NCBI RefSeq assembly: GCF_900105785.1
Contig: NZ_LT629799.1
Span: 2,294,001 to 2,358,000, forward strand
Source: Microlunatus sagamiharensis
GTDB lineage: Bacteria > Actinomycetota > Actinomycetes > Propionibacteriales > Propionibacteriaceae
Reading direction: 5' to 3'
Length of the DNA: 64,000 bases
The position numbers and the translations under genes were made by a program. Shown here piece after piece: positions 10,167 to 35,672 of the stretch (the stretch's first letter is position 1; every line of letters begins with the position of its first letter). The notes beneath the pieces were generated by a model that saw only the letters and a program-made list of their open reading frames with translations, made no database searches and was not told the DNA's origin.

Positions 10167-11554
10167 CAGCAGCCCGGCAGGCGCGCGCCCAGGTAGGCGA
10201 CGACCTGGTCGAGGGCGACGCGCTCCTGCGTCATCTCGTCGCGCGAGCGGATGGTCACGGCCTGGTCCTCGAGGGTGTCGAAGTCGACCGTCACGCAGAA
10301 CGGCGTGCCGATCTCGTCCTGGCGGCGGTAGCGGCGACCGATGGCCTGGGCGTCGTCGAAGTCGACGTTCCAGTGCTTGCGCAGCTCGGCGGCGAGGTCG
10401 CGGGCCTTGGGCGAGAGCGCCTCGTTGCGCGACAGCGGCAGCACCGCGGCCTTGACCGGCGACAGGCGCGGGTCGAGCTTGAGCACCGTGCGCTTGTCGA
10501 CGCCGCCCTTGGTGTTCGGCGCCTCGTCCTCGGTGTAGGCGTCGACGAGGAAGGCCATCAGCGACCGCGTGAGACCGGCTGCGGGCTCGATCACGTACGG
10601 CACGAAGCGCTCGTTGCTGGCCTGGTCGAAGAACGACAGGTCGGTGCCCGAGTGCTCGGAGTGCGTCTTGAGGTCGAAGTCGGTGCGGTTCGCGATGCCC
10701 TCGAGCTCGCCGAACTCCCCCGCCGCGAAGCCGAAGCGGTACTCGATGTCGACGGTCCGCTTGGAGTAGTGCGACAGCTTCTCCTGCGGGTGCTCGAAGT
10801 GCCGCAGGTTGGCCGGGTCGATGCCGAGGTCGACGTACCAGCGGGTGCGCTCGTCGATCCAGTACTGGTGCCACTCCTCGTCGCTGCCCGGCACGACGAA
10901 GAACTCCATCTCCATCTGCTCGAACTCACGGGTGCGGAAGATGAAGTTGCCCGGCGTGATCTCGTTGCGGAAGCTCTTGCCGACCTGGCCGATGCCGAAC
11001 GGCGGCTTCTTGCGCGAGGTCTGCACGACGTTGGCGAAGTTCACGAAGATGCCCTGCGCGGTCTCGGGGCGCAGGTAGTGCAGCCCGGACTCGTCCTCGA
11101 CCGGGCCGAGGTGGGTCTTGAGCATCATGTTGAAGTCGCGCGGCTCGGTGTACTGGCCGCGGGTGCCGCAGTTGGGGCACGGGACCACCGCCAGGTCGAC
11201 GGTGTCGGGGTCGTCGACCTTGTGCTTGTCGGCGTAGCCCTCCTGCAGGTGGTCCGCGCGGAAGCGCTTGTGGCAGTGCAGGCACTCCACCAGCGGGTCG
11301 GTGAAGACACCGACGTGGCCCGAGGCGACCCACACCTGGCGGGGCAGGATGACCGAGGAGTCGAGGCCGACGACGTCGTCGCGGCCCTGCACGACCGAGC
11401 GCCACCACTGGCGCTTGATGTTCTCCTTGAGCTCGGTGCCGAGGGGCCCGTAGTCCCAGGCCGACCGCGTCCCGCCGTAGATCTCGCCGGACGGGAAGAC
11501 GAACCCCCGTCGCTTGCACAGGCTGATGACGTTGTCGAGGGTGGTCGGCGCCAC
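10166..11554 (-). CDS. glyS: Glycyl-tRNA synthetase (dimeric, alpha2 type)
   Basis: A class II synthetase of about 462 residues, normal for actinobacteria. It starts with [14 protein letters not shown] and has motif 2 ([20 protein letters not shown]) and motif 3 ([10 protein letters not shown]). A zinc-ribbon-like insert carries CLHC and CPNC. The GTG at 11554 is chosen because GGAG lies 8 nt upstream and family members start here. A longer reading from GTG 11605, 8 nt after a TAGGCT box, is possible. Confidence 0.95.
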
Positions 11555-12615: not shown

Positions 12616-12936
12616 CTACAGCGGCGGGACCGAGCCGCGGGCCAGGTTCGGGCCCACGAGGTCGGGGTCCTCGTACGCCGTCGGCTCGTCGATCGCGCGC
12701 GACAGCAGCGGGACGACGACCGAGCGCGACTCGATGCCCGACAGCGCGCGGCGGTAGGAGCCGACGTCCTCCCAGCGCGCGGTGATGGTCCACAGGTCCG
12801 GCTCGTCGAGGTTCCGGGCGAAGTCGAGCGAGCGCAGCCCGTCGCGCCGCCGCAGCACCGCGATCGCCGCCGCGGCCTGGTCGAGGAAGTCCTCCGTCTC
12901 GGCCTCCGGCACCGCGAAGCGCGTGATCACGATCAT
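12616..12936 (-). CDS. Antibiotic biosynthesis monooxygenase (ABM) domain protein
   Basis: A 106-residue ferredoxin-like alpha/beta barrel protein starting MIVITRFAVPEAETEDFLDQ, with LRSLDFARNLDEPDLWTITA in the middle. It resembles small cofactor-free monooxygenases and heme-degrading relatives, but no substrate can be assigned. The ATG has a strong AGGAGGA site at 12944-12950. Five bases of that site lie in one arm of a 17-bp stem formed with 13113-13129, so translation may depend on this structure. Confidence 0.8.
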   Translation of the reverse strand: MIVITRFAVPEAETEDFLDQAAAAIAVLRRRDGLRSLDFARNLDEPDLWTITARWEDVGSYRRALSGIESRSVVVPLLSRAIDEPTAYEDPDLVGPNLARGSVPPL

Positions 12937-12945
12937 GGCTGTGTC

Positions 12946-13129
12946 CTCCTGCTCGCGCCCGCGTCGGCCCTCACGATCCTGTCTTCCTCCCTCACTCGCA
13001 CGCCGCGATGCTCGCAGGTGTGCCCCGACCCGGGCGACGCGACGTGCTCGCTCGGTCGTCCAGACAGGATCCGGGCCGCCGCTGACCGACGCTCGCAGGG
13101 TGCAGGACCGCAGCGGGCGCGAGCAGGAG
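12946..13129 (-). repeat. 184-bp structured inverted-repeat element, copy A (upstream of the ABM gene)
   Basis: The outer arms GCGGGCGCGAGCAGGAG (plus 13113-13129) and its perfect complement (12946-12962) form a 17-bp terminal stem. Read on the minus strand, inside it are the 9-bp stem GATCCTGTC/GACAGGATC and the stem GCACGTCGC/GCGGCGTGC, around a variable loop. The 144-bp core 12951-13094 aligns with copy B at 34471-34612. The outer stem covers AGGAG of the ABM ribosome binding site. It could be a MITE-like element or a structured 5' leader. Confidence 0.7.
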
Positions 13130-13288
13130 CACCCGTGATCGAAACGATGGCGAACCGTCACCTTCTCGCAACCCACGGGACACCCGGGCTCCCTAGGCTC
13201 GCTGGACTCGGGGATCCCACCGGCAGTGCGCACCGCTCCAGCAAGACCAAGATCAGCAGTTCCCGACGAGTCACGGAGGCGGTGCCAG
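13130..13288. other. Remaining spacer before the GH92 gene
   Basis: The gap 12937-13288 is the only gene-free stretch over 300 bp. Beyond element A (12946-13129), the rest shows no ORF of interest and no clear hairpin, only the GGAGG ribosome site near 13275 for the GH92 gene. A promoter probably lies here, but I cannot place it. Confidence 0.4.
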
Positions 13289-15658
13289 GTGATCGAGCAC
13301 GTCGACCCCTTCGTCGGGTCCTCCGCCACCCGGCTCCCGCCACCGGTCGGGCTCGCGGCGACGTGGTGGTGGCCCAAGCCGCAGGTCGGGAACACGCACC
13401 CGGGCGCGACGTACCCCTTCGGCATGGTCTCGGCCTGCGCGTACTCCGGCGCCTACCCCACCGGCTACGGCCTCTACGAGCTGAACACCGAGGGCGTGCC
13501 GCCGCGGCTGCACGACGAGCACGTCGCCTCCGGCTTCACCCACTTCCAGCAGTCGGGCACGGGAGCGATCCGCAAGTACTACAACTACTTCCGTGTGACC
13601 CCGATGCTCGAGCCGCTCGACGCGCTGGGCACGACCTGGCTCGTCACCGACGAGGAGGCCGAGCCGGGCTACTACGCCTGCACCCTCGGCGGCCGCCCTT
13701 CGACAGGCTCAGGGAACGGCGGAGGCTCGGGGAGCGGCGGAGGCCCGGGCCAGGGCGTCCGCTGCGAGCTCACCGTCGGTCCCAAGAGCGCCGTGCACCG
13801 CTACACCTTCGGCGCCCACGCCGACGCCCGCGTGGTGATCGACTTCTCGATGGGCGGGCTGACGATCCCGTACGGCGCGACGGTCCCCCTGCGGGCGCAC
13901 CTGGAGACGATCAGCCCGTCGGTGGCCGAGGCCGAGATCGTCGTCGAGGGCGTGCCGCTGGCGACGCACCTCGAGGTCGACGGCGGCGACTGGCGCCAGC
14001 TGCTCTGGTACGACCGCCGGCTCATGCAGGGCGGCACCCGGATGGACTTCGACCGCATCCGGCCGACGACGCTGCGACCGTTCGGGCTGATGTGGCGCGG
14101 GCGCTCCGAACCGGGTCAGGTCGTCGAGCTGCGCTTCGGCTTCAGCCTGCGCGGGCGGGACCAGGCCCGCGCCAACCTTCGCCACGACGCCGTCGCGCGC
14201 GACCGGGTCGAGGTCCGCCGGCCCGAGGTGCACGAGGACCCGACGCTGCCCGTCTCGGGGCCGGACGCCTTCGACTCGCGCCGCGCCGACACGGGTGCCC
14301 GGTGGCGCGAGCACCTGGGCCGGATCCGGGTCGAGACGCCGTCGGCGGAGCGCCGTTCGATCTTCTACACCGCGCTCTACCACGCGTTGATCAAGCCCTG
14401 CTTCGCCGCCGACGAGAGCCCGTTCTGGCCGTCGAACGGCTCCTTCGCCTTCGACGTCTGCACGATGTGGGACGTCTACCGCACGCAGCTGCCGCTGCTG
14501 ACCGCGCTCTTCCCGGCGCGCGCCGCGGAGCTGGCCAACGCCTTGATCACCATCGCCGAGGAGGAGGGCAACCTCCCGATCGGCTACCGGATGGCCAAGG
14601 GCGTCGACCGCTTCTCGCGCCAGGGCAGCGCGCTGGCGCAGACGTTCCTCGCCGACCTCTGCGCCCTCGGCGTCCCTGGGGTCGACTGGGACTGGGCGCT
14701 GGTGCACATGGACCTCGACCTGCGCCGCGGCTACGGCGAGGAGTTCCTGCTGCGCGGGCTCGTGCACCCCGTCACGCACACGCTCGACCTGGCGTTCGGC
14801 TACCACTGCACGGCCAAGGTCGCCCGCCACGTCGGCGACCAGGCGCTCGCCACCCAGCTCGAGGGCCTGGCGACCCGGTGGGTGAACGCCTTCGACCCCG
14901 GGACCGGCCTGCTCGTCGACTCCTCGTTCTACGAGGGTGGCCGGTGGAACTACTCCTTCCGCGTCCTGCACGACATGCAGGCACGCGTCGACCTCGCTGG
15001 CGGCGAGCAGGCGTACCTGGCGCTGCTCGACTCCTTCTTCGGCTTCGGCGCCGAGCCCGTCACCCAGGTCGGCGAGCGCCCCCAGGTGTCCGAGCTGGCC
15101 GCGGGCTACGCGCTCAACCGCTTCGAGGGCCTCAACAACGAGCCCGACATGGAGGCCCCGTGGGCCTACCACTACCTTGGCCGGCCCGACCGGACCGCGG
15201 AGGTCGTGCACGGCGTCGTGGAGAACATGTTCGGGCTCGGCCGCGGCGGACTGCCGGGCAACGACGACTCCGGCGGGCTCAGCTCCTGGTACGTGTGGGC
15301 GAGCCTCGGCCTCTTCCCCGTCGCCGGGCAGAGCCTCTACATGATCAACGCGCCGTCCTTCGCGTGGTCGCGCGTCCAGCTCGGGCGCGAGCAGCTCGAG
15401 ATCACCACGAGCGGGTTCGTCGAGCCGAGCGCCGACGGCGCACCGCAGTACGTCCAGTCGGTCACCTTCAACGACCAGGCCTGGACGCAGAGCTGGATCA
15501 GCGCCCGCGACCTGCACCGCGGCGGCACCCTGCGCGTCGACCTCGGCCCGAGACCCTCGGCCTGGGGCACGACGAGCCGGCCGCCCTCGGTCACCCGACG
15601 CGGCGCCGGCCACCCGGCCCCGTCCGCCGCACCCGTCCCCCTGACCAACGCCGGCTGA
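13289..15658 (+). CDS. GH92 family glycosidase (alpha-mannosidase type)
   Basis: A 789-residue protein. DPFVGSS, then VGNTHPGATYPFGMV, begin the N-terminal beta domain. MWDVYRTQLPLL, NEPDMEAPWAYHYLGRPD and LPGNDDSGGLSSWYVW (with the catalytic Asp pair near residue 658) are GH92 hallmarks. The family hydrolyses alpha-mannosides with inversion and calcium. No signal peptide is evident from GTG 13289, which has GGAGG 9 nt upstream. A REP-like repeat at 13696-13719 adds a Gly/Ser-rich stretch near residues 136-155. The downstream glycosyltransferase suggests a shared mannoglycan theme. Confidence 0.9.
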   Translation: MIEHVDPFVGSSATRLPPPVGLAATWWWPKPQVGNTHPGATYPFGMVSACAYSGAYPTGYGLYELNTEGVPPRLHDEHVASGFTHFQQSGTGAIRKYYNYFRVTPMLEPLDALGTTWLVTDEEAEPGYYACTLGGRPSTGSGNGGGSGSGGGPGQGVRCELTVGPKSAVHRYTFGAHADARVVIDFSMGGLTIPYGATVPLRAHLETISPSVAEAEIVVEGVPLATHLEVDGGDWRQLLWYDRRLMQGGTRMDFDRIRPTTLRPFGLMWRGRSEPGQVVELRFGFSLRGRDQARANLRHDAVARDRVEVRRPEVHEDPTLPVSGPDAFDSRRADTGARWREHLGRIRVETPSAERRSIFYTALYHALIKPCFAADESPFWPSNGSFAFDVCTMWDVYRTQLPLLTALFPARAAELANALITIAEEEGNLPIGYRMAKGVDRFSRQGSALAQTFLADLCALGVPGVDWDWALVHMDLDLRRGYGEEFLLRGLVHPVTHTLDLAFGYHCTAKVARHVGDQALATQLEGLATRWVNAFDPGTGLLVDSSFYEGGRWNYSFRVLHDMQARVDLAGGEQAYLALLDSFFGFGAEPVTQVGERPQVSELAAGYALNRFEGLNNEPDMEAPWAYHYLGRPDRTAEVVHGVVENMFGLGRGGLPGNDDSGGLSSWYVWASLGLFPVAGQSLYMINAPSFAWSRVQLGREQLEITTSGFVEPSADGAPQYVQSVTFNDQAWTQSWISARDLHRGGTLRVDLGPRPSAWGTTSRPPSVTRRGAGHPAPSAAPVPLTNAG
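13696..13719 (+). repeat. REP-like repeat within the GH92 coding sequence
   Basis: CCCTTCGACAGGCTCAGGGA at 13696-13715, then ACGG, lies in frame. It shares TCGACAGGCTCAGGG with the dusB site at 10123-10137. The codons around it give a low-complexity Gly/Ser linker (GGRPSTGSGNGGG) that interrupts an otherwise ordinary domain. Confidence 0.6.
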
Positions 15659-34428: not shown

Positions 34429-34470
34429 GCGTCGACTCGGCCTGCGCGACGCAGGGAGCCGACTCCCGGC
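34429..34470 (+). terminator. Possible hairpin downstream of the diiron gene
   Basis: TCGGCCTGCG at 34437-34446 and CGCAGGGAGCCGA (about 34450-34462) form CTGCG/CGCAG and TCGGC/GCCGA stems with a 3-nt bulge, immediately after the stop codon. There is no T tract, as is common in GC-rich genomes. Confidence 0.35.
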
Positions 34471-34612
34471 GAGCGTCGGCCAGCGGCGGCCCGGATGGCG
34501 TCTGGACGACTGAGCGAGCACGTCGCGGCGCTCAGGTCCTCACTGGTCGAGCTGTCGCGGCGTGCGAGCGCGGGAGGAAGACGCCATCGTCAGGGCCGCA
34601 GCGGGCGCGAGC
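34471..34612 (+). repeat. Structured repeat element, copy B (core)
   Basis: 142 bp aligning over its whole length with copy A on the other strand (12951-13094). Shared blocks are GCGTCGG, AGCGGCGGCCCGGAT, TCTGGACGAC, GAGCGAGCACGTCGC, CGCGGCGTGCGAG, GGAGGAAGAC and GCGGGCGCGAGC. The 9-bp inner stem is GATGGCGTC/GACGCCATC here against GATCCTGTC/GACAGGATC in copy A, so pairing is conserved while sequence differs. It lacks the left outer arm. It lies between the diiron gene and the 3' end of the racemase gene. Confidence 0.75.
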
Positions 34613-34616
34613 CGGA

Positions 34617-35672
34617 CTAACGCAGCACGAAGCCGGGGACGAGCGCGTCGCGAGGGTCGACGAGGAAGGTGTGCTCGCCGGTCAGGTGCGCGGTCCCGGT
34701 GATCGACGGCACGACCGCGTCGACGCCGTCCACGCTCGTCCGCTCCAGCACGCGGGCGACGAACCTCGACCCGACGATCGAGTCGTGCGTGAGCACCTGG
34801 TCGTCGCGGAGCGCACCCGACGCGGCGAGGGCCGCGACCCGGGAGGCGGTGCCCGAGCCGCAGGGTGAGCGGTCGACCTCGCCGTCGGCGAAGATCGTCA
34901 CGTTGCGCTGGTGCGGGCCCTCGGGCAGGCGGCCGAGGTCCTCGAAGAGGATCGTCCCGTAGATGCCGCTGAGCCGCGGGTCCGGAGCGTGCACAGCAGC
35001 CGGGTGGTCGACGAGCGCCCGCTTGACCTCGCGACCCAGGGCGATGAGCTCGCCGTACGCGGCCGGCTCGACCCGCAGGCCCACGTGGGCGACGTCGAGG
35101 TGGGCGTAGAGCGCGCCCCCGAACGCCACGTCGACCGGCACCGTGCCGTACGCGGTCTCCACCTCGATCCCGGTGGCGACGACGTGGCTGGGGACGTTGA
35201 CGAAGTCGACGCTCTCGACCTGCCCGCCGCGGGTGTGCACGCGGGCGGTGACCCGGCCGGACGGGACGTCGACGACCACGTCGGTGACGCCGTCGTCGGG
35301 CGCCTCGACCCGGCCCGACTCGACGGCCCAAGCCCCGAGCGCGATCGTGCCGTGCCCGCAGGCGGTGGAGAAGCCGTCCTTGTGCCAGAACAGGACACCG
35401 AGGTGCGCGCCGGGGTCGTCCGGCGGCACGAGCAGGCCGCCGTACATGTCGGCGTGCCCGCGCGGCTCGAAGCAGAGCAGCCGGCGCAGCCCGTCGACGT
35501 CGGGGTCCGCGATGGCCCGGGCCCGGCGGTCGGCGACGTCGGCGCCGGGGATCGCGACGGGCGGGTCGACGACGATCCGGAAGGGTTCACCACCGGTGTG
35601 GTAGTCGACCGTCCGCACGCGGCGGAGGTCCGGACGCACGGTCCCGGAGCTCGTCGAAGGGTCAGCAGGCAC
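34617..35672 (-). CDS. Proline racemase/hydroxyproline epimerase family protein
   Basis: A 351-residue enzyme probably racemising or epimerising proline or 4-hydroxyproline. Both catalytic cysteines are present, in FSTACGHGTIALG and SPCGSGTASRV. Dehydratase relatives usually replace one, so racemase or epimerase is favoured. TVDYHTGGEPFRIV is the substrate-binding start. GTG 35672 follows TACCGT and 6 nt, the leaderless arrangement, although it makes the first 12 residues (VPADPSTSSGTV) repeat-encoded. GTG 35639 is the alternative start. A copy B repeat abuts the 3' end. Confidence 0.85.
   Translation of the reverse strand: MPADPSTSSGTVRPDLRRVRTVDYHTGGEPFRIVVDPPVAIPGADVADRRARAIADPDVDGLRRLLCFEPRGHADMYGGLLVPPDDPGAHLGVLFWHKDGFSTACGHGTIALGAWAVESGRVEAPDDGVTDVVVDVPSGRVTARVHTRGGQVESVDFVNVPSHVVATGIEVETAYGTVPVDVAFGGALYAHLDVAHVGLRVEPAAYGELIALGREVKRALVDHPAAVHAPDPRLSGIYGTILFEDLGRLPEGPHQRNVTIFADGEVDRSPCGSGTASRVAALAASGALRDDQVLTHDSIVGSRFVARVLERTSVDGVDAVVPSITGTAHLTGEHTFLVDPRDALVPGFVLR

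Follow-up and report, generated by a model that had tools for sequence, protein, structure and literature searches.

A structured element upstream of an ABM-domain gene (copy A, Table 1) was analysed in the window, i.e., the whole stretch of 64,000 nucleotides under study. Copy A likely belongs to a dispersed family of REP-like folded repeats found in Actinobacteria; it would be a lineage-specific insertion of a kind placed at gene ends and not built for the ABM gene. For the family as a whole, the reading with most support is that of a REP-like repeat kept at gene ends, possibly with a role at gene borders. We propose that the GA-rich strand folds into a basal stem, a variable stem, a helix of GA/GA mismatches, an inner stem and a loop, and that this form would be kept while compensatory changes accumulate in the core helices and the GA array occurs in two strand-swapped versions. 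Copies would spread by duplication and insertion, helped by a factor that acts in trans. Neither a transposase nor any other such factor was found, and mobility is therefore deduced from the dispersal of the copies, from tandem copies and from one site comparison. In Microlunatus genomes other than one (G019), most copies are located between convergent genes, their 3' end near an opposite-strand stop codon. As the comparison with orthologs suggests, copy A would have been inserted before the ABM gene and displaced a leaderless promoter, its 3' end now offering a Shine-Dalgarno sequence, and a translational effect on this gene, if any, would be a by-product.

Table 1. Coordinates in the window of the ABM gene, copy A and its parts, and copy B.
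Feature	Position	Strand	Basis
ABM-domain gene, 106 aa	12616..12936	-	Pfam ABM, E 3.3e-10
AGGAGGA, putative Shine-Dalgarno sequence of the ABM gene	12944..12950	-	
Copy A as defined in the first-pass annotation, element with 17-bp terminal arms	12946..13129	-	sequence and fold
Copy A core (outer stem, GA array, inner stem, loop)	12966..13075	-	covariance model R1, 92.2 bits
Copy A outer core stem P2, 5' arm, GATCCTGTCT (minus-strand letters)	13062..13071	-	
Copy A outer core stem P2, 3' arm, AGACAGGATC (minus-strand letters)	12975..12984	-	
Copy A 3' terminal arm, including its own version of the subtype 3' end GGGCGCGAGGAGGA	12946..12962	-	
Copy A 5' terminal arm (comparable outer arm in few other copies)	13113..13129	-	
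Copy B, ends approximate; core 34490-34597	34460..34616	+	DNA search of own genome

The first-pass annotation had described copy A as bounded by a perfect 17-bp terminal inverted repeat, and the two arms, CTCCTGCTCGCGCCCGC (12946-12962) and GCGGGCGCGAGCAGGAG (13113-13129), are indeed full complements of each other. Its statement that five of the seven AGGAGGA bases (12950-12944 on the minus strand) lie within one of these arms was also correct. The minus-strand RNA of 12936-13135, whose fold the annotation had proposed to predict, had a predicted energy of -127.3 kcal/mol (z -6.55), and none of 200 dinucleotide shuffles was as good; the plus-strand RNA of the same region folded more weakly (-114.2, z -4.45, again 0/200). 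Copy A belongs to a subtype of elements that end in GGGCGCGAGGAGGA. Its 5' terminal arm lies outside the usual start of the element and is complementary to this subtype 3' end; it is probably a piece of such a 3' end in inverted orientation. The core had been reported to recur 21 kb away, and a search with copy A (query 8-161) recovered copy B at that distance on the plus strand with 82% identity (E 2.4e-36). The 3' end of copy B abuts the stop codon (34617-34619) of a minus-strand proline racemase gene. The outer core stem is formed by GATCCTGTCT/AGACAGGATC in copy A and by GATGGCGTCT/AGACGCCATC in copy B; these letters differ between the copies and are complementary within each, so that pairing is kept with different bases, as the annotation had read for the core stem.

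A DNA search of the own genome (G000) revealed additional copies, and a covariance model (R1) built from ten copies of this genome had 45 matches in it at E <= 1. Every one of these had E <= 4.1e-6, far beyond chance. Further checks added three copies of the same form and two of a swapped form described below, giving a total of about fifty copies. One pair among them, at positions 236 and 4390404, is probably a single copy, since the two contig ends carry the same sequence. Positions 1-5772 of contig C1 match a stretch from 4390166 near the contig end with 98.8% identity; the chromosome looks untrimmed, and copies at the ends are then counted twice.

The search with R1 covered 57 genomes: 20 of the genus (Microlunatus/Friedmanniella in the named records), 13 others of the same family and 24 from other families of the order. 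Matches were detected in 11 of the 20 genus genomes, the own genome included (10 of the 19 others, with a single match each in G002 and G004), and in none of the 24 genomes from other families of the order. One genome from another genus of the family (G027, 1 of 13) had a weak match (E 0.0099) which lacked the conserved loop and was taken as chance. Among 59 Gordonia genomes, five had matches with E <= 1e-4, and in each of two the number exceeded 20; the named records identify Gordonia amarae as a second host. The core of copy A is dispersed in related genomes, where the first-pass annotation had proposed to look for it. A class-wide draw of 393 genomes, for which 11 candidates were scored per genome and counts are lower bounds, yielded at least nine genomes with matches, at least six of them outside the genus; cores from these genomes often had GGACTGACGAGCGA or a similar sequence facing GAGCGAGGAGGGA or a similar one. 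Tandem head-to-tail arrays of the element were also present. None of 4227 Rfam families reached its gathering score in the window, and nothing in Rfam matched the element in nine loci with E values up to 5; the element resembles structured RNAs of that collection in having covarying helices around a conserved internal loop but differs in matching no family. Zero matches were obtained in plasmids (query copy A), phages (query copy B) and IMG/VR (one strict pattern). Single hits of the strict pattern in Planctomycetota and Coriobacteriaceae records had no model match at E <= 0.1 and were regarded as chance. A search of the open-licence full-text literature gave no description which we recognised as this GA-hairpin repeat family, and the family is apparently undescribed.

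A script scanner with a loose cut-off had 105 hits in 942 kb (60 loci) vs 18 in reversed sequence. With a stricter cut-off the numbers were 95 vs 4 in those 60 loci, and 179 vs 4, duplicates included, in the loci behind a set of 117 copies. This set (102 Microlunatus and 15 Gordonia copies) and a set of 90 copies were both made with the stricter cut-off; one or more hits in the 117 set are probably false (L083, plus strand), and some of its tandem copies are nearly identical.

The element is approximately 120-190 nt long. From 5' to 3' on the folding strand, it comprises a basal stem (visible in the flanks and outside the covariation count), an outer core stem whose 3' side has additional bases, an internal loop that is conserved, an inner stem and a terminal loop, which is ACACGCTTTTCGT or near-identical in many Microlunatus copies. 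One reading of the internal loop is a series of GA/GA mismatches that face each other, with one or two base pairs between them, arranged as GA C GA CC GA RY GA on the 5' side and GA NG GA GG GA G GA on the 3' side. GA/GA was present on both sides in 101/102 (module 1) and 95/102 (module 2) Microlunatus copies; modules 3 and 4 were complete in 52 and 46 of the 102, and incompleteness in about half of the Microlunatus copies counts against our main reading. In Gordonia amarae, modules 1-4 were complete in 15, 14, 15 and 15 of 15 copies. Fifty Microlunatus copies had a small hairpin after the core, AGCGNAGCG, where N is G in 37, A in 11 and C in 2; in this common subtype the hairpin loop is GCGNAGC. 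GNA loops, including GCGNAGC, are specially stable in DNA, as are GA pairs and GA-GA mismatches.

A second form of the element had GAGGAGGA on the 5' side and GACGACGA on the 3' side, with flanks and small hairpin unchanged. The pattern search for this form had matches in 19 of the 20 genus genomes, many of them chance or coding; the richest genomes were G001 (34), G019 (25), G018 (20) and G015 (20), and the reversed control had 0-3 per genome. We read the swapped form as the same GA array with its spacer pairs turned round, which suggests that the mismatch helix itself, rather than its letters, is conserved.

The first-pass annotation had regarded the change of stem bases as the mark of a selected structure. 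In 104 distinct rows, 90.0% of cells were paired vs 65.8% after shuffling, and the covariation score was 0.542 vs 0.140 for shuffled rows and 0.050-0.122 for slid controls. Changes on both sides were found in 21 of the 23 modelled pairs; three of the 23, located at helix ends or inside the loop, failed in 44-57 of the 104 rows. This alignment leans towards structure because it was fitted to the model, and a ten-copy MAFFT alignment made before fitting gave the same picture (0.528 vs 0.186). Compensatory changes in other copies were thus strong, and the structure is either under selection or faithfully copied. However, such selection cannot be credited to control of the ABM gene, because few other copies precede a start codon.

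With symmetric scoring, G-U outnumbered A-C by 43:13 in the 102 Microlunatus copies and by 3:0 in the 15 Gordonia copies, an excess which indicates that the GA-rich strand is the folding one; the copies are related, and neither 43:13 nor the covariation counts represent independent events. Predicted energy was lower on the GA strand in 110/117 copies with RNA parameters and in 111/117 with DNA parameters, an advantage that GA mismatches alone could cause. Dozens of copies per genome keep this unusual mismatch helix while the neighbouring helices have most of their bases changed with compensation.

The position of copies relative to genes was determined with a simple codon-based gene caller. 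In 53 of the 65 loci with a call (70 examined, duplicates included), the gene beyond the 3' end was on the opposite strand with its stop codon towards the element. After removal of duplicates (90 copies), the same arrangement was found in 42/53 copies from Microlunatus without G019, 12/15 from Gordonia amarae and 5/21 from G019; for the swapped form it was found in 21/31. Convergent genes flanked 31 of 54 copies in Microlunatus without G019, vs 97 of 524 background intergenic regions. An opposite-strand stop codon lay within 60 nt of the core 3' end in 32/54 of these copies, 8/15 in Gordonia and 2/21 in G019, and in 24 of the 54 its distance was 40-50 nt, which coincides with the end of the small-hairpin subtype. 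Gene-end enrichment was seen in most of the hosts examined but not in G019, and this genome (2/21) counts against the main reading. At a response-regulator locus, the element occupied the same place in two species, one of which had two additional copies beside the other gene, which indicates that the family includes old copies, possibly with a function at their own site.

These placements raise the possibility that the element acts at gene borders, i.e., that the folded RNA stops or processes transcripts heading into the 3' end of an opposite-strand neighbour and shields it from antisense transcription. We regard this as possible but on the unlikely side. The opposite-strand stop codons in Microlunatus without G019, in Gordonia amarae and in the swapped form, the convergent genes around 31 of 54 Microlunatus copies, and the response-regulator site shared by two species all speak for it. 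On the other hand, a U-tract (TTTT) was absent on both strands, with 2/117 in sense (1.2 in shuffled sequence) and 4/117 in antisense orientation (shuffled 7.5), and there was no sign of an own promoter, as TANNNT upstream was found in 1-2 of 117 copies, below the shuffled 9-18, without enrichment of a -10 box. For gene pairs in the same direction, polarity was 11 to 6 in Microlunatus, 8 to 1 in Gordonia and the reverse in G019 (1 to 7); a duplicate-laden set had given 21 to 5, and the polarity was weaker on recount. The upstream gene in Microlunatus was not indifferent either, with its stop codon towards the element in 37 cases and away in 17. Finally, placement at gene ends could stem from insertion preference or from weaker selection there.

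A wider reading is that the repeats form a new actinobacterial class of folded-strand sites, with a GA/GA array in either strand order and a 3' end set against stop codons, on which a putative protein would either move the element in single-stranded form or end antisense transcription at gene borders. If one protein reads the fold, this would be a new mobility system or a new gene-border mechanism in Actinobacteria. We consider this class doubtful, and the weaker same-direction polarity and the non-indifferent upstream gene led us to weight both it and the gene-border reading lower.

It is improbable that the element is a folded single-strand site for recombination or transposition, similar to an integron attC site or to the ends of IS200 and REP elements and served by a putative enzyme, with its gene-end position following from the mechanism. 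Integron attC sites are palindromic, often located just after a stop codon, folded on the opposite strand, and variable in their helices with structure kept. The GA element shares these features: it often follows a stop codon, the strand opposite to the mRNA of that gene folds, and the DNA parameters favour the GA strand. Its tandem head-to-tail arrays, and the stability in DNA of GA/GA mismatches and GCGNAGC loops, also fit such a site. In contrast, the attC core boxes are missing, as the RYYYAAC/GTTRRRY pair was found in 0/117 copies (75-nt flanks, one order), and the copies are dispersed beside chromosomal genes that look ordinary by eye. Y1 (RAYT) transposase (PF01797) was not detected in any of the 20 genus genomes, the controls being positive in 5/14, and RAYT mobilisation as for REPs was rejected on this basis; the genus keeps GA-array repeats, and the type of transposase that mobilises REPs was not found in it. 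Retroposition by a resident reverse transcriptase was likewise rejected. RVT_1 was present in 12/20 genus genomes and did not track the repeats: it was not found in copy-bearing G017, G001, G015 and G007, and it was found in G005, G008, G009, G011 and G012, which showed no copies. A partner gene near clusters was sought by comparing 820 called genes of 60 loci all against all, and the 25 most widespread groups were ordinary chromosomal families by eye. Replication-strand bias was considered by visual inspection of the R1 match list and set aside.

The element was also compared with several known repeats. REP/BIME elements and REPINs are also short, structured, dispersed, palindromic and extragenic, occur in many copies and tandem groups, and are often near stop codons. 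Unlike those with RAYT, however, the GA element is about 120-190 nt long, has a GA-mismatch array, has no Y1 transposase in the 20 genus genomes and shows no enrichment of the GTAG tag, which was present in 20/117 5' flanks (shuffled 19.8) and 13/117 3' flanks (shuffled 25.2) and absent from the subtype logo. In E. coli, REPs located no more than 15 nt from a stop codon are reported, in an excerpt of one source (PMC12306157), to stall ribosomes. The hairpin in that case would be on the mRNA strand, whereas the GA element has its stronger fold on the opposite strand. For CGTC-tagged palindromic repeats, an excerpt of another source (PMC3733652) gives an occurrence in five phyla, without Actinobacteria, loops of 4-5 nt and no known dedicated transposase; a GA array is not mentioned in that excerpt, and the comparison covers few features. 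In 29 of our 50 small-hairpin copies, the 8 nt preceding the hairpin loop included CGTC, a count taken without a control. MITEs are similar in that the element is short, non-coding and dispersed. However, terminal inverted repeats are not a feature of the family, an outer inverted match of at least 12 nt being present in 4/117 copies (copy A and three others; shuffled maximum 10), and no partner transposase was found. A MITE with terminal repeats was therefore rejected. From the proposal in the first-pass annotation that a mobile, MITE-like element was later used as a leader, dispersal and lineage-specific presence at the site stood, and the terminal repeats did not prove family-defining.

A relative of the ABM gene was found in 18/20 genus genomes, and none of 17 orthologs had the element within 400 nt upstream. 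In eleven of the 17, TANNNT preceded the start codon by six or seven bases; G014 and G017 had near matches, and four had none. TANNNT just before the start is typical of leaderless genes. In the own genome, AGGAGGA is followed by CACAGCC (7 nt) and the ATG (12936-12934, minus strand), and a TANNNT -10 box was not found on the ABM strand in 12937-13300. Given the motif before the orthologs and its absence here, the insertion appears to have eliminated the earlier promoter and to have brought in AGGAGGA. Copy A thus appears to have replaced the leaderless promoter of the orthologs, with its own 3' end providing the Shine-Dalgarno sequence, and would illustrate how a repeat converts a leaderless gene into a Shine-Dalgarno-led one.

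The first-pass annotation had read copy A as a cis-regulatory leader, in which the stem hides the Shine-Dalgarno sequence and opens on a signal. AGGAGGA does overlap the arm, and it was predicted to be mostly paired (unpaired 0.16-0.23) in transcripts that start at or above 13129, the 5' end of the element; for the later starts tried, it was partly free (0.33-0.74). We nevertheless regard the leader as very unlikely, since the element was not seen upstream of the orthologs, the ABM strand has no -10 box upstream, stem selection is family-wide and there is no obvious way in which a G+C-rich stem of 17 bp would open. Copy A is also atypical, being among the few copies that precede a start codon. 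It looks like a recent insertion and not a purpose-built ABM switch; a translational switch at this gene would be possible but is unsupported. That the copies are plain G+C-rich terminator hairpins, alike by convergence, is hardly credible: hairpins are often located at gene 3' ends, but a GA array conserved across genera, shared flanks, tandem arrays, the lack of U-tracts and the absence of matches in 9/20 genus genomes argue against it.

Additional observations concern other sequences near these loci. In G017 and G014, in which the GH92 neighbour is kept, the region upstream of the ABM gene has a different repeat, GAGCTTGTCGAAGG or its complement; a clean empty site with unaltered flanks was not found. 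Upstream of the ABM gene in loci L192 and L193, a repeat other than the GA element, around GAGCTTGTCGAAGGGCCACGAAGTGGT, occupies the orthologous site in tandem in G017 and is found in G014 too. In the window, 13130-13220 contains a conserved palindromic GTGATCGAAACG..CGAACCGTCAC and a plus-strand TAGGCT, which resemble an operator and a -10 box belonging to the GH92 gene; G017 and G014 show partial conservation of this region. Near one copy of the element, an msiK RNA (Rfam RF01747, 59.4 bits) was detected on the minus strand at 107-163 of locus L011. At locus L181 (G019:C1:5028001-5045000, approximately 10830-11300), the response-regulator site contains several tandem copies of the swapped form, not of form 1.
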